From Tipula vernalis (Eukaryota > Arthropoda > Insecta > Diptera > Tipulidae): a stretch of 64,000 nt of DNA. The notes under the pieces were generated by a model, which saw only the letters and a program-made list of their open reading frames with translations, was not told the DNA's origin and searched no databases. The DNA lies in assembly GCA_958295665.1 (NCBI GenBank), contig OY282560.1, positions 274,214,177 to 274,278,176 of the forward strand, in the 5' to 3' direction. Shown piece by piece: positions 8,081 through 34,439 of this stretch. Made by a program: the position numbers and the translations under genes. The stretch's first letter is position 1. Each line of letters starts with the position of its first letter.

Positions 8081-8189
8081 GGCGTAAATGACATTTAACA
8101 ATTGTTAGTCTTAATCGCCAGAAAAAATGTCTAGTTTAAATTAATTCTTGATTTAAGAAATAGTTTATCGGCATAATGGACCACAAGTT

Positions 8190-8990
8190 TAAGTAAAGCA
8201 GCTACTCCATGTACTATCGGATCCCAAGTTCAAATATCTAAATAGTAGTAGGTATAATTCGGTCAATGAACGATTTCAGACGGAGTCTCAATTAGTACCT
8301 AAAGTTTCCATACGAATTTATTCCCATGGGTAGAAGGTAGTTTTTAGGCTCGATGGATGGAGTAGTAGGCCAACTACTACAGGTACTATCAGAAATTGAA
8401 TCCAAATCTCTGGCAAGGAGTGCTAAGGCCTAATTATCAGTTTCAGCTAAAATCTTAATTGGTATAAAAAGTTTCCAGAATAATTTATTTTCCTGGATAT
8501 GGGGTAGGTTTAAGGCTCGATGAACGGAGTAGTAGGTCAGCTACTACATGTACTATCGAAAAGTGAATTCAAATCTCTGGCAAAGGATGCTAAGGCCCAT
8601 TTATCAGTTTCAGCTAAAATCTCAATTGGTATAAAAAATTTCCAGGATAATTTATTCCCCTGGATAGGGAGGAGTTTTTGGGCTCGATGGATATAGTAGT
8701 AGGCCAGCTACTATATGTACTATTGGAAAGTGAATTCAAATCTCTGGCAAGTGGTGGTAAGGCCCATTTATCAGTTTCAGCTAAAATCTCAATTGGTATA
8801 AAAAATTTCAAGGATAATTTATTCTTCTGGATAAGGGGTAGGTTTTGGGCTCGATGAACGGAGTAGTAGGTCAGCTACTACATTTACTATCGGAAAGTGA
8901 ATTCAAATCTCTGGAAAGAGGCTAAAAAAAGTGCTAAGGCCAATTTATCAGCTTCATATCCATATTCATCAATAATTATTTATATTTTCT
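8190..8990 (+). repeat. Tandem array, about 5 units of about 167 bp, each with a hairpin
   Basis: Anchors recur with constant spacing: GGCTCGATG at 8348, 8513, 8681 and 8848, and TCAGTTTCAGCTAAAATC starting 8437, 8604 and 8771. Each unit has a self-complementary core, GTAGTAG-gtcag-CTACTAC, followed by ATGTACTATCGG. The first unit (from about 8190) is the most diverged. The right arm has about three units (about 33900-34330) in inverse orientation. Confidence 0.85.
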
Positions 8991-9439
8991 AATTACTGGG
9001 TTCCATTTAACGTGGGAAAGTAAACACAAGTACTTCTGACTGCACGCAGCTACTCTTGCTAGATTTTATGAGTAGTTTGCTTTTTGAATTTATGGCGATT
9101 TCGTTACCAGAATATTTAGTAAAACCAATCCATATTATTTTAATGCAATAATAATGTTTAACAGCAAACAATAATGTTTAAAAACAAAATTTTAATGCAA
9201 TAATAATGTTACGTAATTAATTAATTATTTAAAAAATCGAGTTTCAGACATTTTTACAAAAGTAAAACACACGCCCTCTTTTAAGCAAAACCAAATATTT
9301 CAGCACTTAGCAGAAACATTGTGTAGAAAATGTAGTACATATGCCCTAACAGAGATGTCACCATATCGACATATTATAGACACATTTGTTTTGATTGCAT
9401 AAAACAAACAAATGTATATTAACTTGTATATGATAAGAT

Positions 9440-9735
9440 AGACGAGGCAGTAAGGTGATAGAGTGGAGTGAAGAAGGTCTGGAGCTCGAATCTAAGCAAA
9501 GCCAACGAACAATTTGTTTTTAGATGAAAAATTTTGAATTGGAGATAATCCGAGAAGATTAATCGGGATCGAGATCGCTACAAAAAAAAAAAATTTGGTA
9601 TAAAATTCGTGGAAATAAAAAAAAATCAAATTTTTGCTTAAAAAAAAAAATAAAGTCGGAAGTTTGTAGAATCGAACTCCAAACTTTTCGCACAACACTC
9701 CTTTATCTTACCACCCAACCACTCATCTATACATA
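9440..9735. repeat. Paired tRNA-promoter-like segments (possible SINE remnants)
   Basis: On the minus strand near 9735-9665 there is GAGTGGTTGGGTGGTAAG followed about 30 bases later by GGAGTTCGATTCT, resembling Pol III A and B boxes. On the plus strand near 9445-9490 a similar arrangement ends GGAGCTCGAATCTAAG. The two face each other around an A/T-run core. The same structure occurs in the right arm (about 32325-32610). This is a weak call from promoter resemblance only. Confidence 0.3.
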
Positions 9736-9814
9736 ATTTCCACTCAGTTTTTCGTTTAAATACTGATAAATTCGGACTTGGTGAAAAATCGCTTACACAT
9801 TTTTGTTATTTTAC

Positions 9815-9965
9815 CGGGCGAACGGAATTTAAAAAACAACATAATTGTCAGCAACGTGACATTATTTTGTATCAAAGCGTGCCACTTCAAGTTATGTGAC
9901 ACTTGAACATACAAAATAAAGTCATATTGCTGACAATTGTACCTTCTTGTAATTTTTGTTCGCCT
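9815..9965. repeat. Small hairpin MITE inside the left arm
   Basis: The ends GGGCGAACGGAATT and AATTTTTGTTCGCCTG are near-complementary. Inside, ACAATTGTCAGCAA / TTGCTGACAATTGT and ATTATTTTGTAT / ATACAAAATAAAG form a long stem around a loop at about 9875-9905. The same hairpin is at about 32085-32235 in the right arm, so it predates formation of the inverted repeat. Confidence 0.65.
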
Positions 9966-10631
9966 GTTAAAATGACAAAATATTTTTTTTTTAAATTATG
10001 CTCACCTGGTAAATGAAAATTAACTTTTTTTAATTAAAAAGGCAATCAATAACTCTAGTGACCCAAATAGAAAATTTGGAGCTTTTTATTACAAAGAGAA
10101 ATCCTTCAGCCCGCGTGGATCGAACTATTACCACAGAATATATATAAACAGAACAATATCTTCTATTGCGCTTTAATCCTAAGTTTGTGAACAAATATTT
10201 AAAATATGATTTAGAAGAGATAGAAAAACAATTTTGTATGGAATCAATGAAACAAAACAAAAATACAAAAATGTTTGTACCCACCTCTTTGTTTTGATCA
10301 ATAAAAATCAGTACAATTTTAAAAGGAAAGGGAAATCTTTACACTTTGTAATGTGTTTAAAAGAGATAGACGTTCATAAATAATTTTTGATTTTGGTCTA
10401 GTTAGCTTTGCGAAACTTTAAAATCAAATCAAAAAATAAACAAAGGACCACTTATTGTTTTTGATGACGAGATATCTATCTATCTATAGTCCCAGGAGCA
10501 CCGAGCTACGCTCGTTCCGAATTACATTAGCGTTTGTTACACGTTCATGTCACTGAGTTTCACCTCATTCAATTGAGCCATATGTTAGTTCCATTTAGAC
10601 TGTCGATTTTCCAGAAAAATTTCCGACACTC

Positions 10632-10895
10632 ATGTTTGAATCCCATTTTATACTAAACAAATCCCATTCTATACAATTCATCCCAATTGAAAGGAAATGG
10701 TTTAATTCTATTGAAACTAGAATAATATTCATATTCCCATTTTACAATCCCATTTTCATGGTACATACCGAGTTCTATCGAAATCGGTTGAGAAATTGCT
10801 TTGGTCCATTGGAATTGGCCATTTTACAGAACCTATACGATCCATATTTGGAACTAATTTATGATCTCTATATAATTCTCAAAAATCACAATTGA
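10632..10895 (+). other. Open frame shared by both arms, probably non-coding repeat
   Basis: An 87-codon frame that is almost identical to the frame at 30470-30736 on the other strand. It matches no family I know. Parts of it, such as ATCGGTTGAGAAAT and TTGGCCATTTT, recur inside the unrelated pogo-type MITE at 53045-53738 in both orientations. That favours a repeated DNA motif over a protein gene. The two frames differ by a three-base change near the start and a few substitutions. Confidence 0.35.
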
Positions 10896-11055
10896 ACAAA
10901 TAAAAAAAACAAAACACAATGCAATATCAATAGCAATAACAACAATTAGATTTCCTTTGTTAGAAAATAAAATAAAAATGAAACCCGAACCTCTCCAGAA
11001 AGCCTACTAAAATATTTTTCCAAGAAATCAAAACCCATTACAATTTCTTCCTTTC

Positions 11056-11272
11056 TTTTAGTTTTATTGGCAATTCAATGCAGTAAGGTTTATGCGTTTC
11101 GTTTTTTTTTATTGGCAATTCAATGCAGTAACATTTATGCAACTTCCTAAAAATAAACGATTATTTGATTAAACTAATTTAGGTTCAAATGTTAAGATTA
11201 GCTTACGTGTTAAAGTCCTGCAAGCACTACTAATTCCTTTAGTAAAGCTCAATAACCTTTCATTTTAATCAC
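11056..11272. repeat. Direct repeat at the junction of left arm and Helitron 3' flank
   Basis: ATTGGCAATTCAATGCAGTAA occurs at about 11068 and again at about 11112, separated by a T-run. Similarity to the right arm stops at 11055, so the Helitron 3' terminus probably lies in this interval. On the minus strand an ACTAA lies at about 11058-11062, compatible with a CTRR end, but the next base is A rather than the expected T and no clear terminal hairpin is seen. Confidence 0.35.
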
Positions 11273-12597
11273 TTATGTTGTATTTAATACATCTTTCCAT
11301 ACAACATTGCGCGTGTGACAAGGATTTTCAGGTGGTAACAGGACTTTCAAACTGCTTAGTCTCTTTACACGAGAAAAAGCAACGTAGAGCATTCCATGCA
11401 TAAATACAGATGTGCGCAAGTCGACAGCAACAAATTCAAAGGTTTGGCCTTGAACTTTATGTATGGTCATAGCGAATGCTGGTCTAACAGGAAATTGATG
11501 CCGTTGCATTGTACATCCAAGCTGACATTTACTTGAGTCAAGCGTTATTCGTGGAATATGCACTTCCCGGCCAGATTTTTCACCAGTTATTATATTTGCT
11601 ATGATGATATTATTGCAGAGCTCAGTTACAATCAGCCGCGTCCCATTACAGAGTCCTTCTGAGACATCCAAGTTGCGTAATAACATTATAATGGTATTTT
11701 TTTTCAACTTCAACTCATGTGATGGCAAATCAGAAATTTCGATTGTATTGAGGAATTCCGATGTGAACTGAAGTGCTCCTTCTGGTTGATCTTTTAGCGA
11801 GTCGTAGCTTAAATAAACTTTGTAGTCTCCGGGCAGTCTTTCTATAATCTCGGCGTTAATCTTATTTACATGTTTATTCAATGGCGCAAGTATTGTTCGA
11901 TCCTTCATACCCTCATAATTTCTATTCACGAGGCAGTCTCCGAATACTTCCTCGATTAAATTACCATTAGAAATTATTTGTTGTGTCAGTCTTATTTCGT
12001 CCATCTCATTTGTCGGAAGTTCCCCATTACCAAGTTGCAGCAAATATTTTGCAAAATCGGTCTGCTCGGGATCAACACGCATATTATCCACCAATGAGAA
12101 GAAAGTAAAGTTTTTCCATAGGCCACTTCTTTTAATTGACAAATCCAATAGTTCACTTCGATTTGCTCGAGGCTGCACGGGTAGACATTGGCGAAAATCT
12201 CCTCCTAAGACTACAGTTTTACCTCCAAATGGTAAATTCGGATCTCCAATTGCTCTTAACAGCTGATCCATATTGTGAAGTCCGTATTTTGGCAACATTG
12301 GTGCTTCATCCATAAAAAAAACGTCAACTTTGGCTAGTTCAGAGGCTTTACGTGATCCAGGTTTTATATTAGAAATTGAATCTGCAGTTAACGGCACCTT
12401 TAGACCAAAAGTCTTGTGTACTGTGCGTCCATTAGGTAGCAGAATCGACGCAATCCCGGTAAAGGCCATACACCTTACATTGTAATTTCGGCCACAAAGC
12501 AAGTGATACAGGGTTTTGTAGATGAAAGTCTTACCAGTTCCACCAGGTCCATCAATAAAAATACATTTTGACCCAGGGTTCGTACCTTGAAGTGTAT
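11273..12597 (-). CDS. Helitron protein, PIF1-type helicase region
   Basis: About 441 codons without lesions. Walker A is GPGGTGKT (DNA about 12530-12555); Walker B-like VDVFFMDEAPML follows at about 12305. GGDFRQCLPV is the PIF1 motif III, and FAMTIHKVQGQTF with VAFSRVKRL are the C-terminal helicase motifs. It ends NVVWKDVLNTT. This SF1B helicase would unwind donor DNA during rolling-circle transposition. The part is complete and undamaged, but in this copy it lies downstream of two stops. Confidence 0.9.
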
Positions 12598-12839
12598 CTA
12601 AAATGATATTTTTTTTTTATAAATTATTTAGCATAAAATTTATTTAATTTATTTAGTTTATATTTGATTAATAATTAAGTTGTTTTTTTATTGATGTTTT
12701 TGTTTATTTTATTATTAACTTTAACATTTATTTTATTTTCTGAAAACGGTATCAAAAAGTAGGGTAAATAATAAAATAATTAAATTAAAAATAAAAAAAT
12801 ATTAAAACGTTTAAACAATTAATTAAATTATGTATCTAC
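12598..12839 (-). other. Intron between Rep and helicase parts of the Helitron gene
   Basis: On the minus strand the donor is TTAG|GTAGAT at 12839 and the acceptor TTTTAG| at 12598. Removal leaves one base plus two, restoring codon phase and joining EIVRTVL to DTLQGTNPGSK, the expected lead-in to the helicase Walker A. The 242 bp are strongly AT-rich, unlike the flanking coding DNA. An AT-rich insertion is the alternative, but the exact phase match favours an intron. Confidence 0.75.
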
Positions 12840-15123
12840 CTAATACTGTACGCACAATTTCAATCTGCCTTCCTTCAAGAAGCGTATACATTTGCATTCC
12901 AATAGCAGTCGAATTATTGACGTTTAAAATTGGCTGATTTGGGTCATTCTCGTAATCATCAATATCATCCATACCGAATCGTTGCACCCAGGAACGAAAG
13001 TTTCTGCCTTCTGTAGCTTCAGTATTTAATTTATACGCGATAATTCGATAAGCTCGTTTGATTCCATCTTCGGCAGACCCACCATTTAGAATAGCTTCAC
13101 GAATATAATCTTCGGCCAAATCTTTTTTAAACATGTCCCACAGACGCTTCGGGTTTTCAGGAGAACCAAGAATAAGAATCTGTGTAAACAACATTCTCAT
13201 TGCTCTAGGCATCTTCGATAAGGCAGATTCTCGCAAACCTTCTATTCATTGTTGATCATCATATACAAGTCCTCGTGCCAGACAAGCTTGTTGGTACGTC
13301 ATATACGAAATACCATTAAATATTAAAAGATCTTCAAAACTTATTGGATTCTTAACATGAAATAACAGTAATCGTAAATGAAATAGTTCAGGTTGTGCAA
13401 CAAAATTGACAGTATGAATTCGGCCAATGACGCGCAAACGACGTGTTCTTTTTACCCATTCACTTGACCTACCCACCCATTTGAAGTGTTCGGGCATTTG
13501 CCAATAGTAGTGGTAAACCACTCCTTCGGGATTTTTATTCAATATACGAATTTCTTCTTCGCGTCTTAGTGCTTGATTATGTTGGAAATATGCGTCCAAG
13601 GTTGAATTCTTCAATCCGATGTCTGCTAAATCTTCTTGAGCCTGATCGATATTTGCGATTCTATATTGACCAGATAGATGGATATTTAATCGTTGAACAG
13701 CGTGGCTCTTTTTTTGTATTTCGTTACCTAATAATCGCCAGCATGCTTCTGGTGGAGTTATACATCTGCCTTCTACATAAGTGTCCGCTTCATTATAAAT
13801 CAATCTTCTTTGGCCCTCATCTATCCTGATAGAAGCGCAATCATGACCCTTATAGATATATTTATAAAGATATTTCACAGCACGAATACTTCCTACATAT
13901 TCAACATTGATATGACAATTATATTTTTTTAATAGATAAGCGTTATAGGGAGCCACATGGCGATTATCCATCGTTATTCGGCTGCCACTCATGTCCTTGC
14001 GGTAAACAGCATATTCATGTAAAAATTCAGGGCTGTGCGGATCTAACTTTGGATCGTAGCGACGTCGATACTTTGGCTTTTCATCATCTATTAGCGACGT
14101 AATTTGTTGGAAAGGCATAGGAAATGCAAAGCGGCATTTTACACGTCCATTCTTGTCGACCATACACGATAGCTCTCCGCAAGGATTATGAATCATCCAT
14201 TTTAATACTCGTTCACGCAATAATGAATCGTTATTGTCGGGAATTTCGGCTGAAATTAAGTCGTCAAGGTCTTCTGGATTAAAAATTTTGTCTTTAGGAT
14301 TCATAATCAACAACATGTGCATATGTGGTAGACCCCTCTTTTGAAATTCAAACGTCAACACATAAGCAGCAACCTTACCAAATATTTGATTTTTATCCAA
14401 TTCTTCTATGATATCATCAAATTTGAGCTTAGCAATTCTAGTAACGAGATCAGGCCGTTCTTGACTTAGTTGTTCAAAAGTTATACCATTATCGGCGACA
14501 ATACGAGTCGCTTCTTTTATTTCTGGCCAATTGGGATTGCAGCTCATAGTAATAAAAAATTCTGGCGACCCAAAACGACGAACAATAGCCATAGCATCTT
14601 CGAAGTGTTCAGTGTAGTACCGCGTTGATCCAGAGAAAGACGATGGTAGTATGATTTTCTCGCTAATTACAGCGTCCTTTTTTCTGGCCAGTTCGTTGAG
14701 AAAATTTGTAACTCCAGTGTATTGTTCAGCAAGAATCTTCTTTTGATTAGCCTTAATCCATTGGATACGATCACGTTCAACCCGAATGTAAGTATCAACG
14801 AGATACTGTTGGAAAAGTCCACCACCAAAATGTAAGGCATTAAAGTGAGTTTGACGTAAATCGAGGTCTGGTATAGCTGTTTCAGGCTGAAGGATCTTAG
14901 CATGTTGTGGCCGAAAGGCTATCCGATACTGTGCCAGTTCCTGTCGCGTAAGATGTGGGCGACTTGGGTACGGTTGTCGTAATTGCATATCAATTGAGAA
15001 ACCAAAGGTTCCTTTTGGGTAGAATAGCGGGTAAGTAAACGGTTCCACACGATTGTCGATATTTTTCAAAGTAATGACACGTTTACAGCGCTGGTGCACT
15101 ACCATTTCATTGTCCGGAATACT
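12840..15123 (-). pseudogene. Helitron protein, Rep (HUH nuclease) region and linker
   Basis: Rep motifs: FQKRGLPHMHMLLIM contains the metal-binding H-x-H (DNA about 14310-14345), and KYLYKYIYKGHD (about 13845-13880) carries the two candidate catalytic tyrosines, so this is a two-tyrosine HUH enzyme that nicks and joins single strands. SCNPNWPEI and GRIHTV are other family blocks. A TGA at 13246-13248 interrupts the frame, which continues as IEGLRESALSKMPRAMR and runs to TLLEGRQIEIVRTVL at the intron donor. The catalytic residues are intact. Confidence 0.88.
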
Positions 15124-16476
15124 TTAATCAGCATTAAGTGTGAGAACGGCACATACTTCGTTAGATAAGGGAACGTTAAATCGTCTATAATCGGCGCCTT
15201 GGGGCAATGTAAACAACAGCCGGATCTGTGGAGGCATTACTCCTTGTGCAACGGCATTCTGGTTAGTTTGTTCTTCTACTTCTCGCATCATCATATAGCC
15301 CTTAGCAAATTCATTCTGAGAACGAATAATTCGTTCTAGCACCTCCATAAGAGCATGGCTGACTCCATGATTGATAGGATGATCAAGTCGCTCGTTAATT
15401 GCGTGTTCAGAATCCAAAAAGTACATTTGACCATATTGTGGTCGTTCTGATTCACCTTGTGTGTTTTGTGTTGGATGAGCTGCTAAATTCATTTTGTGAT
15501 AAACTTGTCCGGCAGCAATAAAGCTATATATACCACAACTGTTGTTAGTACGATCATCGTTCACATTAAATGAAGCCAACGCAAAGCATGCATTTAAACT
15601 TCGGATTCGTTTGTGGAATTCTTCGGCGAGCGGATGGCATTTTAAAAAGATACGTATTAATTCGTTTGGGAATAATGGTGCTTCTAGTTCGATACGACCG
15701 TGTAAGCAGCAATCTCCAAAAGAGTTACGATCAGTTCGATTAGATACACGTTTTTGGAGAAAATGAAGCGCTCCACAGTGAATGCACGCAACGTCAAAAG
15801 AACCTAAGCTATGGTATGATACATCAGCTGTGACAGCACGCCGATAGGTCTGCAAATTATTTTCCAAATTTGTAACATATCTAGCATTACGACGGCGTTG
15901 TTCTTCCAACCGCTGTTCATGCCTTTCATTGGTTACATCTACCCGTTGATGACTTTCACGTTGCTGCCTGTGTTTAAGTCGCTGCACCCTTTGTTCATTT
16001 GTTTCATTGATCCGTCGTTGGGTTGCACGTTGTTGTAATTCATCAAGACGCTGTTCTCGCTGTTCATTTGTTTCGTTGAGCCGTCGTTGGGTTGCACGTT
16101 GTTGTAAGTCATCAAGACGCTGTACCCGTCGTTCATTTATTTCAGTGGCACGCAGTTTAAATGCATTTTGTTTAAGGCCTTCGAGTCGATTCGCATGTTC
16201 TACAGGAGTTTCAGCGAATCTTTTCTGTCTCTTTATTATATTATTTTCAGATTTTGCTTGTTCTGAATTGTGTTTTCCAATATCAGAGATCATTTTGATA
16301 CATTTTGTTTTAGCAGCTCGTAATGGTCTTGTATACATTAGATTATCTATTGGACTCACAGTTGCTCTTGATGGTCCTGGGTTATTTATACGCAGATTTA
16401 GTTCTTCGTTACTTACCAACGTGTTCTTTTTATTATTACTAAAATCTTCACGTTTCTTAGGACGTCCACCAGGCAT
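15124..16476 (-). pseudogene. Helitron protein, N-terminal region
   Basis: 450 codons from MPGGRPKKREDF, an AT-hook/nuclear-localisation-like start. Residues of about 110-190 form four degenerate repeats of about 24 residues with cores such as RATQRRINETNEQRVQRL (DNA about 15900-16140), charged and probably helical. A CIHCGALHF and CCLHG pair (residues about 230-255) looks like the Helitron zinc-binding motif. The region ends at an in-frame TAA followed directly by SIPDNEMVV in the same frame, the start of the Rep part, so this is a single gene with a nonsense mutation. Confidence 0.85.
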
Positions 16477-16562
16477 ATTTTATAAAGCTGTAGATAAATG
16501 TAACACAGTTTTAAGCTTCAGCCAACTTTAAAATCACACAACAATTTATATAATAAAAATAC

Positions 16563-17880
16563 TCATACAATCATTCGATATTTTCTTTTCATTTGTAACA
16601 ATGTTTTATACCACAGAAAACCATTTTTTGCGCACAAAAATATTTTTTTAACATGAATTAGAATAAAATAAAATCCCCGAAATATTCCTCTTCGGATCGC
16701 GGGGCGAGCCATAATCCTCGTAAAGTGAAAATTGATAGCCCTACCATCTACTTTTCCAATGGCAGAGGTCTCGTGACTAACAAAAACTGCGCACATCAAC
16801 ATCCCGCATGCGCGACATACTAGTATTAACGGAAACACATCATCTCTCAGAATATTTATAAGAACGAATTCTACTCCAAACACTACCAATTCGAACAAGC
16901 TTTCGAATTACACCGTTGACTGTGCATCTTTATTAATAACCACATACCGTACTAAAGCACAAAAAGTATGAAATGATGTATTCAAAATTTCACTTCCTAA
17001 CGAGCTTCTATGTTTAATCAATATCGCTCAAATGGATTTAGAAACCAAGATCTTCTTCGAAAATTTGTCAAACAAATGTGATGATATTCGCAATACACAT
17101 CCCCAGTACAAACTAATTATCATTCTCTTTGGTCCCAATCTGAATACTAAATTTTTTTCAAAAGGAGAAACCAAAGCTGCCAAACAAAATAAAGCTGCAC
17201 ACAAGAAATACAAGCACAACGATATTTCCTATAAGGAATACAGCACGATACGGAATAATTGCTAAAAAATCTGTAGTAAGGGAGTGAAACGAGAAGAAAA
17301 CATTGTAAGATTTAACGAAAAGGAGAAAAAAATATGCATAGTTTCACGTAAAAGTGGAAACGAATACAAATTTGTAACGAGAGATCATATCCCCGTGGAT
17401 TGTGACTTAATTCGTCTGCATAGTGTTCAAAAAAGTAATAACCTGAAATGGAACGAAAAACACGTCATTATTGCACTGACCAAATCAACATCCAAAAAAC
17501 TAGGTTTCTTCAATCGATGCAGAAGGTTTTTTAAGTCGCATAAAAATTCTCCAAATAAAAGACCTTCATCTGACCATGTAACGAATATTTCTGCCAACCC
17601 TAGACTTGCTCAACAACTAGACAGTTTACAGCACCGTAGGAATGTCGCAGAACTCTGTGTTTTAAAGATACGTGCATGGTAAATGCTCTGCAGAATTATT
17701 TGAGAAAATATTACCATTCGTTACGACCTATGTGCATTGGCTGTTCCTCTTGTTACCCTAGCTAGGGTAACAAGAGGAACAGCCAATGCACATAGGTTTA
17801 TGGTAAAATTACCAGAACCTCAAACTGAGGAAATTAAGCGTGAATTCATGTGTCGAACATCCATTAAGTGAAATTCGTGA
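16563..17880 (+). pseudogene. LINE ORF2 remnant with internal deletion
   Basis: Near 16810-16850 a frame reads DILVLTETHH, like an endonuclease block. From 17032 the frame runs through FFSKGETKAAKQNKAAHKKYK, the basic linker between endonuclease and RT. After a TAA at 17263-17265 it continues to KKLGFFNRCRRFF and LDSLQHRRNVAELCVL (about 17495-17670), typical of the C-terminus of non-LTR ORF2 proteins. TRGTANAHRF and KREFMCRTSIK follow to about 17875. The catalytic RT core is missing. The clade is not assigned, and the stretch 17284-17480 is not recognised with certainty. Confidence 0.55.
17726..17797. repeat. Perfect 72-bp palindrome, no spacer
   Basis: Left arm 17726-17761 is the exact reverse complement of 17762-17797, with centre CCCTAG|CTAGGG. 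The right arm reads in frame with the LINE remnant (TRGTANAHR), so the left arm is a secondary inverted copy that replaced or was inserted in LINE sequence. Confidence 0.97.
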
Positions 17881-18785
17881 AAACATTTAAGGCAGTTATC
17901 AGCATTATTTATCATACTTGAAGAAACAGAGATTATCATACTTGAAGGATCGCACATTGGGTGCGGAAGCTTTGACAGTTACGAGAAGTTATAGAACCGT
18001 CTATAAGTTTGGTCCGCACCCAATTTAAAACAACATTTAAAAAAAATATACAAAAATTAGTATTAAGAAAGAAAAGTTCAAAATAACGAAAAGCAGAAAA
18101 AATAATATATCTATAAGTAACAGTGTTGATGGCATTACCAAAACTTTCGCAATTGTATATATACAAGCCTTACTATTGCGATCATACGCAAACACACTCA
18201 AAGAATTTACCACAATTTTTTCATACAAATCGTATTATTTTTGTGGTTGTTTCAATTTTGTTGTTGTTCCGCTCGCACAATACTGATGTAGCACAGTACT
18301 GAATAGTGGTAAGAAATGTGTCGTATGTATTGATTAAGTTAGGCTTTGTATAAATATCGAAAGTTTTGGCATTACTGATATTCCGAAAAAAAAATTAAAA
18401 ATGCGTAAGAGGATTTCGAACTGACAACATTTCTAATAATGAATAACAAAGAAAAAACATCAATATATTATTTCCGGCTGAACAAGCACAGTAATAAATA
18501 TCGACTCTTGACTTTGTATTGACTAATCATACAGGATTGATTTATAATATAGAGACTCGTAATAAGCTCAATTCAGATCACATACCACTACAATTTGAAA
18601 CTAAATTAATAAAATTAGAAACTGCGCCGATGGTACGTTTGGCAATTAGAATCGAATTATAAAAAGCAGACGACATATAACAAAAACATTATTGAAAATA
18701 TAGTTGATATTGTCCTAAATTCAATTATTAACCAACTATACGAGTATTTATAATAAACAATTATTTGTTTTTAAATTTGTCTGTA
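17881..18785. other. AT-rich spacer with an 11-bp inverted repeat
   Basis: No gene seen. ATTGGGTGCGG (17956-17966) and CCGCACCCAAT (18014-18024) form an inverted repeat around a 47-base loop, possibly a decayed MITE or template-switch scar. Confidence 0.4.
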
Positions 18786-18992
18786 TTTTTTTTTTTTTCG
18801 CTGGCGCTACATCCCATATAGGGATTTGGCCGCCTCATGTGAGGATACGTAATCATTTTTTCTCGCGGATAATGATTGATTAATTCATTGTTCCTAAACC
18901 AGCCGTGACAGTTTTGTCACCCACCGGGAATCGAACCCGGGACCTCCGGAGCTTAATGCAAGCATTCTAACCACTGTGCCACCGGGGCGGCG
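18786..18992 (-). repeat. tRNA-derived SINE, minus orientation
   Basis: On the minus strand the head reads GCCGCCCCGGTGGCACAGTG, then GTTAGAATGC, then CCCGGGTTCGATTCCCGGTG. These are a good Pol III A box (GGCACAGTGGTTAG) and a perfect B box (GGTTCGATTCC) in tRNA-like spacing. A body with GGCGGCCAAATCCCTATATG follows, ending TAGCGCCAGCG plus an A-run. It pairs with the copy at 19449. Confidence 0.88.
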
Positions 18993-19448
18993 TTTGTTTG
19001 TAATGCTGTATTTAAATATTAACAGTATGCTATTTATAATTAAATATTATTATATTGTATAGTATTAGAAGTAATAATTTTCATATAACGGGCTTAGTCG
19101 AAGTGTACATTTACAAAATGAATTTAAAAACAGGAGGAAATTAAATTCTTTGTACCTAATGGATTTTAAAGATATTGAATATCTTAATTTTCCTGACCAA
19201 TAATTTAAGAAATATACTTTTAAAACCACAATTCAACTTACAATATGCGATTGAGCGACACAATATGCGATTTATTGAAAACTGAGCAAATTTCAAAATT
19301 ATCCATTAAATTGTGATGTTTATAATTATATTGTACATATATTATCCATTTAGTATGGTTAATCATCAAGTTTAACAGAATTAAATATTTAGATAATCTA
19401 TGTATTTAAATAATAAACACATTTTTCAGTTACACATTTAAATTCATT

Positions 19449-19652
19449 GCCGCCCCGGTGGTACAGTGGTTAGCATACTTGTTTTAACCTCCGGAGGTCC
19501 CGGGCTCGATTCTCGGTGGGTGAAAAATGTTCACGGCTGGTTAAGGTCAATGAATTAATCAATCATTATCATCCGCATGAAAATTCTGATTACGTATCCT
19601 CATTTGAGGCGGCCAAATCCATATATGGGATGTAGCGCCAGCGGAAAAAAAA
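19449..19652 (+). repeat. tRNA-derived SINE, plus orientation
   Basis: Same family as 18786-18992 in the opposite orientation, about 460 bp away. The head is GCCGCCCCGGTGGTACAGTG with B-box GGGCTCGATTCTCGG, one change away from consensus. The body and the tail GTAGCGCCAGCGG plus A-run match the other copy. Two SINEs facing apart in this way could fold into a hairpin if transcribed together. Confidence 0.88.
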
Positions 19653-22425: not shown

Positions 22426-22440
22426 TTTAAAATTGTGTGT

Positions 22441-23655: not shown

Positions 23656-24640
23656 CGTGTAAGTTTTATTATTTTATGTTATTTATACTATATCCTAATT
23701 AATTTTCTTTTTAGCTTATATGAATATTTTACCGGTCGCCACTCAATATGATAATATAGATAGCAAATAATTTATTACCAAACGGGCAAACAAATTGTGA
23801 TATAAGTTCCGAACTCCTCGATATATGAGCTGGAATGGGTTTCAGTATGGAAATTCTAAGCGTAGCAACTGATGTTCCGGTTAAAAATAAACGTTTCAAA
23901 GAGGTTAAAAAAATCAAGCCGCTATTAAGACAAAATTCATAATATCAAAATTTCGTATAAAACTCGATGAGATACTACTATGCCTCAATTTTCTAACTGT
24001 TTCCAATTAACCGTTCCTGCACGTCCTGGTGCAATCTTAACGAAGAAATGACGTTCCAAGCATCTGATTTTGTATTAAAATAAAAAACTAGTGTTTTTTA
24101 AATAAACAACAGTATAAATAAATTTTTTATTTGTATTATTTTTCACAAATGATTTTGTACTATTATCATGACCGCTAGCCCGCTACAGATATTTTCGAGT
24201 CGAGGTGCATTATCTCTATTAGCACATTTCCTTCCGATAGTATATACCGAGAGTGCTAAGATAATTATTGGTGATTCAGAATAGGAAAAATCAAAAGGGA
24301 AGTTCAATAATCGGGGAATTGGTTGAAGTTGAACCAAATTATGATTTTTACGAGGACGTTGATAATACCTTGATGGAAATATCGGATAAAATATCAAATA
24401 TTGTTTCAGTACCACCGCATTCTTTAGCCACAATTGGATAATTCTTGAAACTGCCTGCATATTCAGATGTGCTATTGCGCGCTAAAATAAAAGCACAATG
24501 CTTACTACTCTTACCTTGTTTACCGGAGATGGTGGAGGAATAAAATTTATAGTCTGTCGCTAGCTTCATCACTCCTAACGCTACCACCATTTGAAGTATT
24601 ACGACAATTATTTTATTTGCTCTACTAAACAACCACCGAT
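23656..24640 (+). pseudogene. BIRC6/Bruce fragment, copy C (runs into the palindrome)
   Basis: Matches copy B from the GT..AG intron-like start through the PPHSLA block (about 24412) and the AQCLL block (about 24495). Its last part, from GCTACCACCATTTGAAG at 24580, lies inside the left palindrome arm and so is repeated in inverse at about 29140-29201. Stops throughout. Confidence 0.62.
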
Positions 24641-24852
24641 GACGCTTGAAACCAAAAAGCATCCACCAGTCAACGGTGTTTTAATAAAACTTCTTTTTAT
24701 AGTTGCGTGAAAAACGCTTTAGTAAAAAAGTGAAAGTACCACCCAACGTATCCTATGGGGTTGTCATTGATCCAAACATTTATACTGTTGACAATGGGCC
24801 CTTGAAAAGAAAAAACTAAAATAATTTTCAAAACTTAAACTATTTTTATTAA

Positions 24853-25470
24853 TCAATTTATTGTATCATCATGTCGTGTTGCTGTTTCAGCCAACGCTAA
24901 CATGGCTAAAGCGGTAATACTTCGTACATTTCGGTGTTCATCAATTAAACCATTTATTATCACTTCGATCAATAGCTTGATAATACAAAATGAAATCGCG
25001 TTTATTCGAACAGCGATTTGTTGTACGATTTTTATGCCAGTATAACGATCTTGCCATTTGGTACTCTGGCAGACCACCTTGAGGAACGATAATAATGTTG
25101 GAATGCCAAAAACAATTGCGACCACCACAAAAGCATGTGCAATGGTATTTCGTATATACGCCTCTATATTATCGATATCGGGACGCATTGCAGAAATCAT
25201 TGCTGTTATACCGGTCGAATTTACTATTTTTGAGATTATCTCGTAATCTTTATATTCCTTAAGTTCAGGGTCATAAATAGTTTCTATAATTTTCAATAAC
25301 ACAATATCTAACAGATATTTATCATAATTTTGTGCATCCACAAGCGAAGGATTAGTATCGCATTTTATTTGAGGAGTTACATCCCATCGATTATGCCGCG
25401 TTGGTTTTGATACTCGTACCTTATTTTGATTTAAGAACGATTTTTTATGTGATATTTTATTTTTATATAT
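24853..25470 (-). pseudogene. SF3B1-derived fragment, left palindrome arm
   Basis: Mirror copy of 28314-28931 with the same translation over the 162 residues starting DAQNYDKYLL. SF3B1 is the HEAT-repeat scaffold of the U2 snRNP that grips the branch-point helix. The fragment contains ISAMRPDIDNIEAYIRNTIA and TGIKIVQQIAV, closely matching the SF3B1 HEAT blocks. Upstream in frame lies NRWDVTPQ, an RWDxTP motif of the SF3B1 N-terminal region. No ATG precedes RWDVTP after the last stop. The two copies point away from each other. Confidence 0.82.
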
Positions 25471-25631
25471 TTATTCTATTCCACTCATTTTCGTGATTTT
25501 TTGGTCAAGAAAATCACTGGAATAATTAAATCCTACAATTGAAAATTGAATCCAATATTTCCAGAAAATTATTTCAATATCGATTTCATATAAATTTTCA
25601 AGATTCTCGCTCGAATTAATGATCCTTCACC

Positions 25632-25633
<2 letters not shown>

Positions 25634-25718
<85 letters not shown>
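25634..25718. repeat. (AT)n microsatellite, left arm
   Basis: About 85 bp of uninterrupted AT dinucleotides. The mirror copy at 28119-28146 has only about 28 bp, so the two arms have drifted independently since duplication. Confidence 0.98.
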
Positions 25719-25723
<5 letters not shown>

Positions 25724-25904
25724 TTCCCAAATTATACCTACGTTTACTGATATACATACATTTACCGTAGCTTAAATGTAAATGTAGTTTTTGTAGTTAA
25801 TTCTTGATTTTTGTGAACGTAAATGTCATAATTGTGCCTTTGCAACACAAATAATTTACTATAATAGCCTAAATGTAGCTTACAACTTTTACATTCATCT
25901 TTTA

Positions 25905-26093
25905 TTATTATTCAATCATACATGCCATATAAATTTGAAAAAAAAAAACGAAAAAAAAATTTATCTCAAGAATGTAATTTTCGAGGTTCGAACTACGATC
26001 TAAAATTTTAAAATCCACAACGCTAACACCTAGACTACTGCGGCATGGGAATTTGCCGAAAAATTTCTTGGTTTTATAAAAAGTTTTGAGCAT
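25905..26093 (-). repeat. tRNA-like SINE candidate, left palindrome arm
   Basis: On the minus strand GCCGCAGTAGTCTAGGTGTT then AGCG resembles a Pol III A box (TAGTCTAGGTG), and 30-40 bases on GTAGTTCGAACCTCG is a good B box. A T/A-run follows. A second SINE family, distinct from the one at 18786. No second copy outside the palindrome was found, so support is moderate. Confidence 0.5.
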
Positions 26094-27742
26094 TCTACTA
26101 AATTATATAATATGTAGATAGATTTACACAATGTGACGTATCCACATAGAGAAAGATAAAATTTGTCAGATCTTTCTGTAATTTGGTATACAGATGAAGA
26201 AAAATATTCTAAGAATAATTTCCTTTACATCATATCGGAAAAATCACGGAAAATGCGAGAAAATCACGAATTTCCACTCTGGAAAATTCGTCGGGAAAAG
26301 ACTAAAAAAAAATATGCTGATCATCCAACATTAATTTAAATTTTTTTTTTTGTCGTGATTTTTGAAAAATGGACATCCATGAAAAAAAAATCATAAAAAA
26401 AAAAATTAAATACATCCCAACTTCCGTATGCTGCTAACTACGCCAGCTGTACTATTTAAAAAAATCATCAAACATTCTTTTCTATAAAAAAAAAATACAC
26501 AATACATATCGCTCATTTGCTGCAACAATGACACAATTTAAAAATAACAAATGTTATAATTTGAGAGACATTTCCGTTTGTCTTGTAGTGAGATTTATAG
26601 CTTTAGGTGTGTCGTTATATCAGTTTTAACTATATTAAAAAGCCGATATTTCTCTATAAATAAGTCAAAAACGACCGATTTTGAGTTATGCCATTGTGGT
26701 AGCAAATGAGCGATATACAATTGACCATTTTAGAGATGGCGCTGTAAAATTTGGATAATTTTTCCAGAAGGCTTTACAGAGTTTTCCCAGACTTGAGACC
26801 AGACTCAATCGCATTTTCATGGCAAAAAGACATTATATAGCCATTTTACGTCAACGAAATCGGTCTGGAAGTAGTTTTTCGTGCGGACATATATACATAC
26901 CCGCAATTATTGGCTCGTTTAATAATTAAAGGGATTAAATGAGCAATAATTGCGGGTATGTATATATGTAAATATGTCCGCACGAAAAACTACTTCGAGA
27001 CCGATTTCGTTGACGTAAAATGGCTATATGATGTCTTTTGCATGAAAGTGCGATTAAGTCTGGTCTCAAGTCTGGGAAAACTCTGTAAAGCCTTCAAATC
27101 TGGAAAAATTAATCCAAATTTTACAGCGCCATCTCTAAAATGGTCAATTGTATATCGCTCATTTGCTACCACAATGGCATAACTCAAAATCGGTCGTTTT
27201 TGACTTATTTATAGAGAAATATCGGCTTTTTAATATAGTTAAAACTGATATAACGACACACCTAAAGCTATAAATCTCACTACAAGACAAACGGAAATGT
27301 CTCTCAAATTATAACATTTGTTATTTTTAAATTGTGTCATTGTTGCAGCAAATGAGCGATATGTATTGTGTATTTTTTTTTATAGAAAAGAATGTTTGAT
27401 GATTTTTTTAAATAGTACAGCTGCGTAGTTAGCAGCATACGGAGTTGGGATGTATTTAATTTTTTTTTTATGATTTTTTTTTCATGGATGTCCATTTTTC
27501 AAAAATCACGACAAAAAAAAAAAAAATTTAAATTAATGTTGGATGATCAGCATATTTTTTTTAGTCTTCGCGATTTTCTCGCATTTTCCGTGATTTTTCC
27601 GATATGATGTAAAAGGAAATTATTCTTAGAATATTTTTCTTCATCTGTATACCAAATTACAGAAAGATCTGACAAATTTTATCTTTCTCTATGTTGATAC
27701 GTCACATTGTGTAAATCTATCTACATATTATATAATTTAGTA

Positions 27743-28118: not shown

Positions 28119-28145
<27 letters not shown>

Positions 28146-28313: not shown

Positions 28314-28931
28314 ATATATAAAAATAAAATATCACATAAAAAATCGTTCTTAAATCAAAATAAGGTACGAGTATCAAAACCAACGCGGCATAATCGATGG
28401 GATGTAACTCCTCAAATAAAATGCGATACTAATCCTTCGCTTGTGGATGCACAAAATTATGATAAATATCTGTTAGATATTGTGTTATTGAAAATTATAG
28501 AAACTATTTATGACCCTGAACTTAAGGAATATAAAGATTACGAGATAATCTCAAAAATAGTAAATTCGACCGGTATAACAGCAATGATTTCTGCAATGCG
28601 TCCCGATATCGATAATATAGAGGCGTATATACGAAATACCATTGCACATGCTTTTGTGGTGGTCGCAATTGTTTTTGGCATTCCAACATTATTATCGTTC
28701 CTCAAGGTGGTCTGCCAGAGTACCAAATGGCAAGATCGTTATACTGGCATAAAAATCGTACAACAAATCGCTGTTCGAATAAACGCGATTTCATTTTGTA
28801 TTATCAAGCTATTGATCGAAGTGATAATAAATGGTTTAATTGATGAACACCGAAATGTACGAAGTATTACCGCTTTAGCCATGTTAGCGTTGGCTGAAAC
28901 AGCAACACGACATGATGATACAATAAATTGA
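28314..28931 (+). pseudogene. SF3B1-derived fragment, right palindrome arm
   Basis: Open from 28314 to TAA 28929-28931, about 205 codons. The first 40 include VSKPTRHNRWDVTPQ, matching the RWDxTP ligand motifs that in SF3B1 bind UHM splicing factors. About 25 residues later comes a HEAT block: YEIISKIVNSTG, ISAMRPDIDN, FGIPTLLSFLKVVCQSTKWQ, TGIKIVQQIA, and ITALAMLALAETATRHD. In SF3B1 hundreds of residues separate these regions, so this is a join of two distant parts or a heavily deleted retrocopy. It has no internal stop or frameshift and no intron within the HEAT part, but also no start codon. Captured pseudogene most likely; a small antagonist-like protein is conceivable but unsupported. 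Confidence 0.82.
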
Positions 28932-29219
28932 TTAATAAAAATAGTTTAAGTTTTGAAAATTATTTTAGTTTTTTCTTTTCAAGTGCCCATTGTCAACAGT
29001 ATAAATGTTTGTATCAATGACTACCCCATAGGATACGTTGGGTGGTACTTTCACTTTTTTACTAAAGCGTTTTTCACGCAACTATAAAAAGAAGTTTTAT
29101 TAAAACACCGTTGACTGGTGGATGCTTTTTGGTTTCAAGCGTCATCGGTGGTTTAGTAGAGCAAATAAAATAATTGTCGTAATACTTCAAATGGTGGTAG
29201 CAATCAATGGTAGCACAAT

Positions 29220-30400
29220 CAATTGTGACCGGTCTTGATTTCGAAAAAAATAGTTTAGGGGGTTCTTCAGTGGAACTCGGGCTCCTTTGTAATTTTCACG
29301 ATGTTGGTAAATATTGGTAAGAAGTGTTTTTAAGTGGTATAAGGTGATCCCCATTGGTCTTGATTTCAGGAAAATTCAGACTCCATTTTTATAGTTTTAA
29401 TGATTTTGTTGAAAATTGGTAAGTATGTTTACCAGTCCAGAGTGTCATCCATTGGAACTTGGGTTTTTTAAATTTTAACTATTTTGTTAAAAGTTGGTAA
29501 AGAGGGTTTTCGAGTGCCACGAAGCGATTGTGATGGGTATAAATTTTTGGAAAATTCGTTTAGGGGGTTCTCCAGTTGAGCCCGGGCTTCTTTTTTTTAA
29601 TTTTTACATTTTTGGTAAAAATTTGTGAGCGGCTGGGTGCCAGACAGAGATTGCAATGGGTCTTGGTTTAAAAAAATTAGCTTAGGGTCTTTCAGTGGTA
29701 TCCGGGTTCCTTTTTTCATTTTAACAATTTTGGTAAACATTTGGTAATGAGAGATATTCGAGCGGCAGGAAGCGATCGCCATGGGTATTGATTGAAGTCA
29801 AATAGGGTTTTGAAAGGTCTGCAATGGGTGTTGATTTCGGGAAATATATGTTTAGAGGGTCCTCCGGATGTTCGAGGTCCATTTTTTAAGTTCAACGATT
29901 TTTGTAATAATTGGTGAGCAGGGATTTTCTAGTGTTAGGAAACATTTGCAGTGGACTTTGATTTCGGGAAATGTCGTTTAGTGGGTCCTCTAATAGGCCT
30001 GGGGTTCGTTTTTTTGAATATTTTTTTATTGATCATAATTGGTGAAAGAGAGTTTTCGAGTGCCAAAACGCGATAACACCGGGTATTGATTCTTAAAAAA
30101 AACGTTAAGGAAGTTCTCGTCCGGTGAGCCCCTGTTTGCTTGGTTTTATCTTACTTTTTAACTTACTACCGGTTTCTGAAACGGTTATTTGATTTTTATT
30201 AATGTTGGTTGGGGTGGTTTTATTTCAGTAAAATTCGTTTAAGAGGATCCTCCTATGGGAATTCATATTTTTATTATTTTCTTTTATTAATAGTAATTGG
30301 TTAGATGGAAATTTTCTAGTGAAAGGAAGCAATTGTAATGGGTTTTGATTTCTTGGAAAAATATTTTAGTAGGCTTTCTGGAGAGGTTCGGGTTTTATTT
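29220..30400 (+). repeat. Degenerate tandem array, about 125-bp units, 9-10 copies
   Basis: GGTCTTGATTTCG-like anchors occur at about 29231, 29356, 29536, 29658, 29783, 29826, 29953, 30081, 30211 and 30341, spaced mostly 122-130 bp with two irregular steps. Each unit also has TTTAGGGGGTTC..CAGTGG and TTTTGGTAA..TTGGTAA..GAGTTTTCGAG blocks. The array joins the SF3B1 palindrome to the right outer arm. Only its last unit (from 30321) has a counterpart in the left arm. Confidence 0.8.
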
Positions 30401-30469
30401 TCTAACAAAGGAAATCTAATTGTTGTTATTGCTATTGATATTGCATTGTGTTTTGTTTTTTTTATTTGT

Positions 30470-30736: not shown

Positions 30737-31000
30737 GAGTGTCGGAAATTTTTCTGGAAAATCGACAGTCTAAATGGAACTAACATATTGCTCAATTGAA
30801 TGAGGTGAAACTCAGTGACATGAACGTGTAACAAACGCTAATGTAATTCGGAACGAGCGTAGCTCGGTGCTCCTGGGACTATAAAATTATACAAATAAAA
30901 GTGAAATGATACATAAACACATACACAACCTTATTCAAGTTTTGTTTTTGTCTTTATTATTTGTTTGATATGATTTGGTATTCCGTTATCGAAAACAATG

Positions 31001-31537
31001 ATGGCTGGTCTCCACTTGTATATTTTTCTCTTGACAAAAAATAAATGACAAACGGCTCGTGACATTTTTTTTACCACTACTAACATAAAGAATATAGCTA
31101 ATTTTTCTCTTTGAGAATAAGAAAAAAATTTGAATTTGGTTCGTTTTTCGAATAATACAATTTTTTCGCATATTACTTTTGTATTCCACGATTTATTATT
31201 TGTTTTATTTTAATAACACAAATTTTATTATATTTTGACCTAAAATTCATTAAAAGGACAAAATTTTGTGAAAAAAGAATGAAAATTTCATTTTATTTGT
31301 CAAAATATTCAACATGAAATTGAGCATAAAATACAATTTATGCTCAAATGGCACAACGTCGTGACAAAAATATTGAATATTCTGATCTTTTCCTCTCTTG
31401 ACAAAATTTCAATGCGCATGCTCAAATCCATTTTTGTGTATGTATTTTGAAAAATGTACTAAAAATTGTCATGAGGAAAAAAATGGACTAGATTTTTTTT
31501 TTGTCAAGAGAAAAATACGAAAGTGGAGACCAGCCAT
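31001..31537. mobile_element. MITE inserted only in the right outer arm
   Basis: The ends TGGCTGGTCTCCACTTGTAT and CGAAAGTGGAGACCAGCCA are inverted repeats that continue through TTTTTCTCTTGAC / GTCAAGAGAAAAA. The left arm has the uninterrupted site CACTTATTG, so this is a clean insertion of about 537 bp, flanked by TTA/TCA, a possible 3-bp duplication with one mutation. No coding potential. Confidence 0.82.
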
Positions 31538-32916
31538 AAGAGGTCCTTTGTTTATTTTTTGATTTGTTTTTAAAGTTTCGCAAAGCTAACTAGATCAAAT
31601 TCAAAAATTATTTATGAACGTCTATCTCTTTTAAACACACAGTACAAAGTGTAAAGATTTCTCTTTCATTTTAAAATTGTACTGATTTTTATTGATCAAA
31701 ACAAAGAGGTGGGTACAAACATTTTTGTATTTTTGTTTTGTTTCATTGATTCCATACAAAATTGTTTTTCTATCTCTTCTAAATCATATTTTAAATATTT
31801 GTTCACAAACTTAGGATTAAAGCGCAATAGAAGATATTGTTCTGTTTATATATATTCTGTGCTATTACCATAAGAGAGCAGATTAAAACCATAGAGGTTT
31901 CTCGAGTTTGATCCCCGCACCTGAAGGAATTTTTTTTTTGTAATAAAAATCTCCAAATTTTCTATTTGGGTGGTTGCCTAGAGTTGCCTTTTAAAAAAAG
32001 TTTATTTCTATTTACCAGGTAAGCAGAAATTAAAAAAAAAAATTTTTTTCATCAAAAATCGCAAGAAATTTTTGTCATTTTAACAGGCGAACAGAAATTA
32101 CAAGAAGGTACAATTGTCAGCAATATGACTTTATTTTGTATGTTCAAGTGTCACATAACTTGAAGTGGCACGCTTTGATACAAAATAATGTCACGTTGCT
32201 GACAATTATGTCGTTTTTTAAATTCTGTTCGCCTGGTAAAATAACAAAAAGTTGTACGCGATTTTTCACCAAGTCCGAATTTATCAGTATTTAAACGAAA
32301 AACTGAGTGGAAATTATGTATAGATGAGTGGTTGGGTGGTAAGATGAAGGAATGTTGTGCGAAAGGTTTGGAGTTCGATTCTTTAAACTTCCGACTTTAT
32401 TTTTTTTTTAAGCAAAAATTTAATTTTTTTTTTATTTCCACGAATTTTATACCAAATTTTTTTTTTGTAGCGATCTCGATCCCGATTAATCTTCTCGGAT
32501 TATCCCCAATTCAAAATTTTTCATCTAAAAACAAATTATTCGTTGGCTTTGCTTAGATTCGAGCTCCAGACCTTCTTCACTCCACTCTATCACCTTACTA
32601 CCTCGTCTATCTTATGCAAGTAAAAATACATTTGTTTGTTTTATGCAATCAAAACAAAATGTGTTTATAATATGTCGATATGGTGACATCTCTGTTAGGG
32701 CATATGTACTACATTTACTATACAATGTTTCTGCTAAGTGCTAAAATATTTGGTTTTGCTTAAAAGAGGGCGTGTGTTTTACTTTTGTAAAAATGTTTGA
32801 GGCTCGATTTTTTAAATAATTAATAATTAATTACGTAACATTATTATCGCATTAAAATTTTGTTTTTAAACATTATTATTGCATTAAAATAATATGGATT
32901 AGTTGTACTAAATTGA

Positions 32917-33736
32917 ATAATACCCGTGGCAGTGGACTGTATTTTAATTTTACCTGGATTTTATGAATTTAATTTTTGGCTTCGTGGAATTGATGGACCA
33001 ACAAAAACTTGCTTGTGTGCGTCGTATCGTTCGCAATTAATTTTTTATTAAAACACCTTTCTTTTTTATCTTATTAACATTTATTATTTTTACTATTTTT
33101 AACTTTTAGGTGTGTTCACGTTAGCGGATCTTCCAAAAAAGCATTTGTTTTCATTCAAAATTTTTGTTTCACAAATTATTTACTAATCCATAGTGACATC
33201 TGCCCTTTCAGATTCACAACATTCGTTTTCCTATAATGTTAGTACAAAATTTGTTCAATGTTATCGCATTACTCTATTACATAAATTTCCTCCATTTTTG
33301 GATCTGTCAAATTTTTTTTTATGTCAACAAAACATTCATAATGATAAGTTTTATATAATACAAATAGTAGTTAATTAATTATAATAAATTTAAACATATG
33401 ATACATTTTTAGATAACCAAATAACAATTACATGAAGGAAACCAGTTAAGTTGGGCTATAATTATAATCAGATAAGTATAAAATTGGTACATAATAAATA
33501 AAATTATTCTTTGTTTCTTTTCTGGAATCACCGTAACCCACAAATATATAGAATTCGACACTTGCGATGAATAGGAAATTGGTACATATAATTTGCACAA
33601 ATTGGATTGCTTCGATCGTCAATCAGCTGTTTTCTTCAGATAAATATTACGTGCTTATTTGGTTTCTCTAAGTAGTGATTCATTGTGTTTTGCTTCGTTG
33701 TTAGCTTAGGGCTGATAATCCAGGATATTGAACATA
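32917..33736. mobile_element. Insertion of about 820 bp present only in the right arm
   Basis: Similarity to the left arm stops after GGATTAGTTGTACTAAAT and resumes at ATTCTGGTAACGAAATCGCC. The left arm has these two sequences contiguous. The inserted DNA is AT-rich, without convincing inverted ends or ORF, and its class is unknown. Confidence 0.6.
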
Positions 33737-34439
33737 AATATTCTGGTAACGAAATCGCCATAAATTCAAAAAGCAAACTACTCATAAAATTTAGCAAGAG
33801 TAGCTGCATGTAGTCAGAAGTACTTGTGTGCACTTTGCCACGGTAAATGGAACCCAGCAATTAGAAAATATAAATAATTATTGATGAATATGGATATGAA
33901 ACTGATAAATTGGCCTTAGCACTCCTTGCAAGAGATTTGAATTCACTTTCCGATAGTACATGCAGTAGCTGACCTACTACTCCGTTCATCAAGCCCAAAA
34001 CCTACCTCCTATCCAGGGGAACAAATTAGTTTGGAAGCTCTAGGTATTGAGATTTTAGCTGAAACTGGTAAATGGGCCTTTGCACCCCTTGCCAGAGATT
34101 TGAATTCACTTTCCGATAGTAAATGTAGTAGCTGACCTACTACTCCGTTCAACGAGTGCAAGAAATACCCCCTCTCCAGGGGAATAAATTCGTCTGGAAA
34201 CTTTAGGTACCAATTAAGATTTCATCTGATATCGTTCATTGACCGTTAACACAAACTTCTAGATATTTGAACTGGGAATCCGATAGTACATGTAGTAGCT
34301 GCTTAAAACTATTGTCCAATATCCCGATTAACGATTTCTCAAACCAGGAATTAATTTAAACTAGACATTTTTTCTGGCGATTAAGACTAAAAATTGTTAA
34401 ATGTCATTTACGCCGAAAATGACGTATTAGCTCGGATGG

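Follow-up and report, generated by a model that had tools for sequence, protein, structure and literature searches.

Gene capture by Helitrons is well documented (PMC6544945, in the portion available). Foldback elements such as Galileo and Tetris, the latter with target duplications of 8-10 bp in the accessible part of its description (PMC4079207), have long inverted arms with tandem units. The composite examined here appeared to combine both. It lies in a 64,000-nucleotide stretch of the crane fly Tipula vernalis (GCA_958295665.1, contig OY282560.1; G000:C3:274214177-274278176 in the 1.27 Gb, 340-contig genome that was searched), hereafter the window, to which all positions refer. An initial annotation had read some 26 kb of it as a large foldback-like element collecting pieces of the host genes SF3B1 and BIRC6, or as Helitron-driven capture inside such an element. 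The present analysis favours, with a probability of about 0.84, at least three mobile elements nested one in another over a single foldback that collects genes. The locus shows how nested insertions and a head-to-head pair of elements can mimic a giant foldback element.

Nested layers of the composite

The multi-kilobase inverted arms (8081-11055 and 30321-34414) are present, as are tandem units of 163-167 bp at both outer ends and a near-perfect inner palindrome with almost no spacer (24580-29201). Three layers make up each inverted 'arm'. Outermost is a foldback half (to 10131); next, at 10132-10488 and 30880-31861, come the inverted ends of an inserted element, and innermost, at 10489-11055 and 30321-30879, the 3' parts of two Helitron-like copies. 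Going inward, arm divergence is patchy, at 1.5% (8081-8147), 20.5%, 5.0%, 4.6%, 2.2% and 0.9%, with 0.4-2.0% in the palindrome, which fits layers with separate histories. The features of the two outer layers are as follows.

7828..10131, plus strand: left foldback half, placed by the homology starts of L038, L040 and L041 and closing with the left copy of the target-site duplication
8286-8925: tandem units of 163-167 bp in the left foldback half
10125..10131, plus strand: left copy of the target-site duplication, CTATTAC, with an ambiguous eighth base, C
10132..10488, plus strand: left inverted end of the inserted element, beginning CACAGAATATATATAAACAG
30880..31861, minus strand: right inverted end of the inserted element, broken by a small inverted-repeat element with 46-bp ends (~31001-31537)
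31862..31868, plus strand: right copy of the target-site duplication, CTATTAC
31862..34414, minus strand: right foldback half, truncated at 34414 and holding an extra 822 bp

The block 10132-31861 opens with CACAGAATATATATAAACAG and closes with its inverse, and CTATTAC stands on each side; the inverted stretches 10132-10455 and 31536-31861 agree at 97.8% of the 322 columns compared. An intact foldback centre at another locus (L007), GAACTATTACCATAAGAG, holds CTATTAC(C) once, against twice in the window, implying the insertion of 21.7 kb into a single foldback copy, accompanied by a duplication of 7-8 bp.

The outer layer belongs to a dispersed family of foldback-like repeats whose arms contain tandem units. 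The genome-wide arm search that the initial annotation had proposed returned, for the arm core (9170-9988), 1387 candidate places, 40 of which were scored; most of these were full-length or nearly so, at 93-96% identity, and they are spread over the three large contigs, where several form inverted pairs lying close together. The arms are therefore not unique to this locus; arms confined to it would have spoken for a one-off duplication. Six of the seven non-window loci fetched (L002-L008, L008 seen in part) hold the two arms in inverted order, meeting at 10133|31862 in L002, L004, L005, L006 and L007 and near 31994 in L003.

The true outer ends lie elsewhere than first supposed. Left-side homology to other genomic copies begins at 7827 (L038), 7943 (L040) and 7828 (L041), not at 8081. 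The earlier statement that no target-site duplication was found holds in that no exact flanking repeat occurs at 8081/34414, yet these positions are not true ends, because homology reaches 7827/7828 and the right arm breaks off at 34414. The outer ends showed more near-repeats than expected (18 versus a chance mean of 4.2), the best having 10 bases with one mismatch; they were not taken as a duplication since repeats of at least 10 bases were reached in 22 of 300 random pairs. When ends were inspected for an 8-10 bp duplication, those in L038-L041 proved not symmetrical and the right end in the window truncated. The lack of an outer-arm transposase was borne out by Pfam for the stretches scanned, namely six frames of 8081-11272 and 16480-31481 and three minus-strand frames of part of the right arm (32880-33762), with 31482-32879 and 33763-34414 lying outside the scans. 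No P-type (THAP) domain occurred in the scanned stretches, and autonomous relatives elsewhere were not searched for. An exact 29-base pattern of the tandem unit had no match in viral_contigs or genome_contigs. The outer block was also considered as a HINE, since it holds a hairpin and, in subterminal position, an inverted match of 12 bp with one mismatch; this reading was rejected because the element extends past 8081 and is a foldback.

Several observations concern the surroundings. The 822 bp in the right arm (32914-33734) have ATTTA at both borders and are missing from the left arm and from L007. A BEL/Pao reverse transcriptase-like fragment, recognised by eye, adjoins the truncated right arm (34415-35200). 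Beyond it stands an inverted repeat with ~520-bp arms, 91% alike, around mariner-type transposase-like remnants (35506-37098, by eye), with no convincing target duplication. To the left of the composite are MFS transporter exons of a gene or pseudogene (4369-6096). Rfam and tRNA scans gave no match.

A Helitron-like element with host gene pieces

Within the inserted block, the initial annotation was right in placing SF3B1 and BIRC6 pieces and a Helitron: Rep-helicase domains match PF14214 (E 1.1e-53) and PF05970 (E 4.5e-49) at 11273-15123 on the minus strand. Helitron-driven carriage of host fragments likewise stands; the fragments lie in a separate element with its own ends, and it was not the foldback that took them up. 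Two copies of this element are present in the window.

10489..26926, minus strand: long copy of 16.4 kb with Rep-helicase, 5' end at 26926 and 3' end at 10489
10489..10514, minus strand: 3' terminus, hairpin CGAGC-GTA-GCTCG followed by GTGCTCCTGGGAC (5'-3' on that strand)
11273..16479, minus strand: Rep-helicase frames (Helitron_like_N, PIF1), disrupted by stops and a change of frame
18753..19683, no strand given: two inverted tRNA-SINE-like (short interspersed element) copies, 85% identical, inside the long element
21314..24612, plus strand: BIRC6 fragment in three tandem units of ~1.2 kb, unit 1 broken by an inverted-repeat element (~21635-21888)
24853..25470, minus strand: SF3B1-derived open frame, copy 1, 205 codons
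26934..30879, plus strand: short copy, head-to-head with the long copy, with no Rep-helicase and with BIRC6 almost wholly deleted
28314..28931, plus strand: SF3B1-derived open frame, copy 2, identical to copy 1
29217..30400, plus strand: degenerate tandem array of ~120 bp units, common to gene-bearing copies and the gene-free L053
C3:364122194, outside the window: native SF3B1, an open frame of 1110 codons

The element is Helitron-like with a non-canonical 3' end. Its 5' end reads TCTATATTATTAAACGAGCAATAATTGC; the 5' TC stands in TCTATATTATTAAACGAGC, with differing flanks at the counted ends. At 27 of 31 such ends, from gene-bearing and gene-free copies, TCTATATTATTAAACGAGC is preceded by A (nine of the 27 with an extra TCT), the remaining four having C at three tandem junctions and T at one. 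The count excludes L009, L010, L029, L048 and L050 as window copies or duplicates and L020 as lying outside the search pattern, and four of the 31 are second ends within a locus. At the 3' side, a hairpin CGAGC[G/A]TAGCTCG stands 13 nt ahead of the end, and the terminal GGGAC is followed by T in all seven single ends examined (two in the window, L028, L031, L033, L034 and L035). No direct repeat was seen by eye at the three copies with both flanks (L012/L034, L018/L031 and L020/L035). Head-to-tail tandems with a period of ~4.64 kb (L013-L015) are joined as GGGAC|TCTATATT. The flanks are A|T and not the TT of Helentron and HINE insertion. The label 'Helitron-like' was chosen because Helitron features are present while the 3' CTRR is missing. 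In the gene-free relatives L052, L055, L056, L060 and L064, a CTRR-type end (...CACCTAG) seemingly closes the element ~2.2 kb after the 5' end, and a second 5' end follows.

The SF3B1 piece matches residues 589-719 of human SF3B1 (E 1.9e-37; 69 of 130 residues identical). A search with the piece gave 212 candidates, and the 40 scored, among them the two window copies, were all 100% identical after rounding. A protein search with the frame found one relative, P0001 (E 7.4e-22), and a genome search with P0001 gave 214 candidates, the 150 scored comprising one native gene and 149 element-like places (the two in the window included). The BIRC6 piece corresponds, in two frames, to residues ~4120-4326 of the solved chain, and stops and a change of frame occur in the unit examined. 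After the second BIRC6 match, a stretch bounded by GT...AG (~23659-23714) is probably a retained intron to judge from its borders; if so, the BIRC6 piece was copied as DNA.

Relatives devoid of gene pieces help to place the capture. Among 19 non-window loci from the 5'-region search (686 candidates, 40 scored), twelve match only to 28305, L058 only to 27796, and six carry SF3B1; L050 is the same copy as L022. The gene-free relatives share the first 1.37 kb of the element, and L053 then enters the same 120-bp array. The host pieces therefore probably entered inside a pre-existing element, between its first 1.37 kb and the array, and capture would have been internal (filler-type) and not by read-through beyond the 3' end.

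Comparison of copies points to a long parent. Copies run from 26926 to break points at 24703, 24040, 22979, 22282 or 18917, continue with the 120-bp array or its last unit, and close with the last 0.57 kb, a part itself shortened in L032 and L029/L030. The stretch 18917-26926 is colinear at ~99% with L036/L011 and, as far as fetched, with L044/L016 and L045/L023. The same 18917 junction occurs in L011, L016 and L023, and it cuts a SINE-like copy that is intact in the window (18753-18991), which marks these three as having arisen by deletion from a longer parent. At a second locus (L068 with L063), colinearity with the window, at 98-99%, extends between 20996 and 11103 and takes in the Rep-helicase. 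As 11103-20996 in L068/L063 overlaps 18917-26926 in L011, L016 and L023, the Rep-helicase belonged to the same parent as the gene-bearing part, and it may have driven the spread.

The inner palindrome consists of the fused 5' parts of the long and short copies, with its centre at 26927-26933. When 991 columns were compared across the two window copies and 17 others, the window copies had one private change in common and were unlike each other at four sites, which favours a common recent origin of the two. The palindrome could have been made by fold-back template switching, for example during rolling-circle replication, or could reflect later conversion. An assembly artefact was judged unlikely; the arms differ by substitutions and by indels of 30, 8 and 6 bp.

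Two further observations concern the long copy. The SINE-like copies (18753-19683) have multiplied together with the mobile element carrying them. A perfect, spacerless palindrome of 72 bp lies in an apparent remnant of a retrotransposon of the non-LTR (long terminal repeat) type (17726-17797) and is 100% conserved in L068.

Taken together, the findings favour the following course of events. A foldback-like element was split at its centre by an inverted-end element, leaving the short duplication. Inside the inserted block lies a head-to-head pair of rolling-circle Helitron-like copies. The Helitron-like element took up a coding piece of SF3B1 and a genomic piece of BIRC6, probably within its own body; the former then evolved for long as coding sequence, and the latter was tandemly duplicated and decayed. 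A 16.4 kb form with the Rep-helicase gave rise to short forms by internal deletion, and these spread recently, inserting between A and T with no target duplication. The two window copies, joined via their 5' ends, make up the palindrome.

Coding history of the SF3B1 piece

SF3B1 is one of the most conserved splicing factors, and the carried piece has kept an open frame and substitutions of a coding type despite its divergence. Over 122 codons, element and native SF3B1 share 60% amino-acid and 68% nucleotide identity, and the best local alignment reaches 71% over 347 columns. Identity at codon positions 1, 2 and 3 is 72, 82 and 50%, and divergence is 0.277 at nonsynonymous sites (dN) and 1.24 at synonymous sites (dS), giving dN/dS of 0.22 with no stop. 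A neutral simulation matched at position 3 (~50%) gave ~63 and 64% at the first two positions, with amino-acid identity of 38% and about five stops, and only 1% of its 200 runs were free of stops. Set against this simulation, the low dN/dS, the position bias and the stop-free frame indicate coding constraint for much of the history of the piece, which appears to have evolved for long as a protein-coding sequence. No cellular paralogue of intermediate similarity occurs among the 150 scored places (of 214 candidates).

The recent past looks different. Exactly 205 codons are kept in 123 of the 149 scored element-like places, a count that is biased, as the list shows no stops but misses at least one stop-bearing copy (L065). 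The invariance of the frame in 17 copies (0 of 618 variable columns versus 36 of 373 outside) was rejected as a sign of selection because these copies had been chosen by that very frame. Copies chosen by the 5' region (L057, L059, L062, L065 and L067, with L022 added as a sixth row) have 13 of 618 variable columns inside the SF3B1 frame and 8 of 333 outside, and three of the five copies chosen with no regard to the frame hold in-frame stops. By this comparison, no constraint on the frame is visible after the recent burst. The frame has no early ATG, the first in-frame ATG standing near codon 91, and may now be a passenger.

A bolder proposal is that the element encodes its own SF3B1-derived HEAT-repeat protein, captured long ago and held under protein-level selection in a master element, which it would aid, for instance, by altering the splicing of element or host transcripts; present copies would then be a recent burst in which the frame decays. 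This is possible but doubtful. Captured gene pieces in Helitrons are usually seen as passengers; an SF3B1 piece that kept its coding character while diverging, and that now occurs at ~150 scored places, makes it directly testable whether an element uses captured host genes.

Rival readings and known systems

Several points weigh against nesting around one Helitron-like parent. The canonical Helitron 3' CTRR is replaced by GGGAC in all seven single ends examined and at three tandem junctions, and both window copies lack canonical TC ends where they meet. The Rep-helicase reading frames of the window copy are broken, and its long copy lacks the part of the array next to the 3' end that is found in L011, L016 and L023. 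Among the fetched copies, SF3B1, BIRC6 and Rep-helicase stand together only in the window; L068 is cut at 20996, so that the link to the Rep-helicase rests on overlap, and L063 loses homology at 11103, before the window junction at 11056 is reached. This last point is what one would also expect if the Rep-helicase segment (11056-18916) were an unrelated Helitron that had landed in a gene-bearing, non-autonomous element, a reading to which the position of the segment, where L011, L016 and L023 have the array, and a CTRR-type CTAA read by eye at 11058-11061 (minus strand) lend some weight. The unbroken colinearity of L068/L063 from 20996 to 11103 speaks against it; the segment goes together with 18917-20996, a stretch that three other copies join to the gene-bearing part, and the shorter forms are recognisable as deletions by their SINE-like copy, cut off at 18917. 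An unrelated insertion is accordingly improbable. That the palindrome is a hairpin-RNA locus producing small RNAs against host SF3B1 would be suggested by its near-perfect 2.3 kb arms with host-gene sequence, which resemble Drosophila hairpin-RNA loci as described in the available part of PMC10317233. With a piece only 68% identical to native SF3B1 over the aligned codons, and an arrangement accounted for by the meeting of two element copies, such a role seems very improbable on sequence grounds.

The same evidence bears on the two readings of the composite as one unit. A single 26 kb foldback of the Galileo, Tetris or housefly M-V kind, with a middle domain that collects gene fragments, would explain arms of tandem units that are multi-copy and occur in inverted pairs, and it has a precedent in the palindromic, gene-carrying 31 kb housefly locus with tandem blocks and a 9-bp duplication (PMC11252125, in the part available). 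It is already contradicted by the occurrence of the gene fragments in copies that have different flanks; of the six inverted loci, five are joined with no interior at 10133|31862, the sixth near 31994, and the interior has its own flanking duplication. This leaves it scarcely credible, and nested elements remain the preferred account. Still less can be said for the idea that a segment of ordinary genomic DNA was duplicated once in inverted orientation. Small repeats shared between the arms in the same order, and a divergence that falls inward except in the outermost 67 bp, would fit it, but the outer arms and both tested parts of the inner element are dispersed repeats, and copy number refutes it to the point that its probability is practically nil.

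Compared with described systems, the outer layer shares its long inverted arms and tandem units with Tetris (PMC4079207, in its available part) and Galileo; the gene cargo here is not part of the foldback family. The housefly M-V male-determining palindrome has a similar inverted layout of ~30 kb with tandem blocks at the ends and inner duplicated sequence, but its gene lies inside one transposon-like unit with 9-bp duplications (PMC11252125, as far as available), whereas here the cargo sits on a separate Helitron-like element. The likeness is one of layout only. The housefly Mdmd gene, for its part, derives from a splicing factor. With Helentrons and HINEs, DINE-1 included, the inner element shares rolling-circle character, blocks of tandem repeats and short palindromes near the ends; it differs in inserting at A|T and not at TT (PMC4067079 and PMC7492417, in the portions available). 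No endonuclease domain appeared in the Pfam scans made of the window stretches.

Full-text literature searching, with subscription journals outside its coverage, brought up three papers that mention both Helitrons and SF3B1 once or twice, and no report of a Helitron carrying SF3B1 was seen; a capture with such a coding history is unusual. The closest systems are insect Helitrons with captures, such as Hel1 in the accessible part of PMC6544945, which share with the present element a 5' TC, insertion between A and T with no target duplication, a 3' hairpin, a Rep-helicase, internal captures and bursts of near-identical copies. In comparison with them, the element of T. vernalis ends in GGGAC instead of CTRR, reaches a 16 kb form, contains a 120-bp array along with fragments of two host genes, and holds an SF3B1 piece that appears to have been under coding constraint before the burst.

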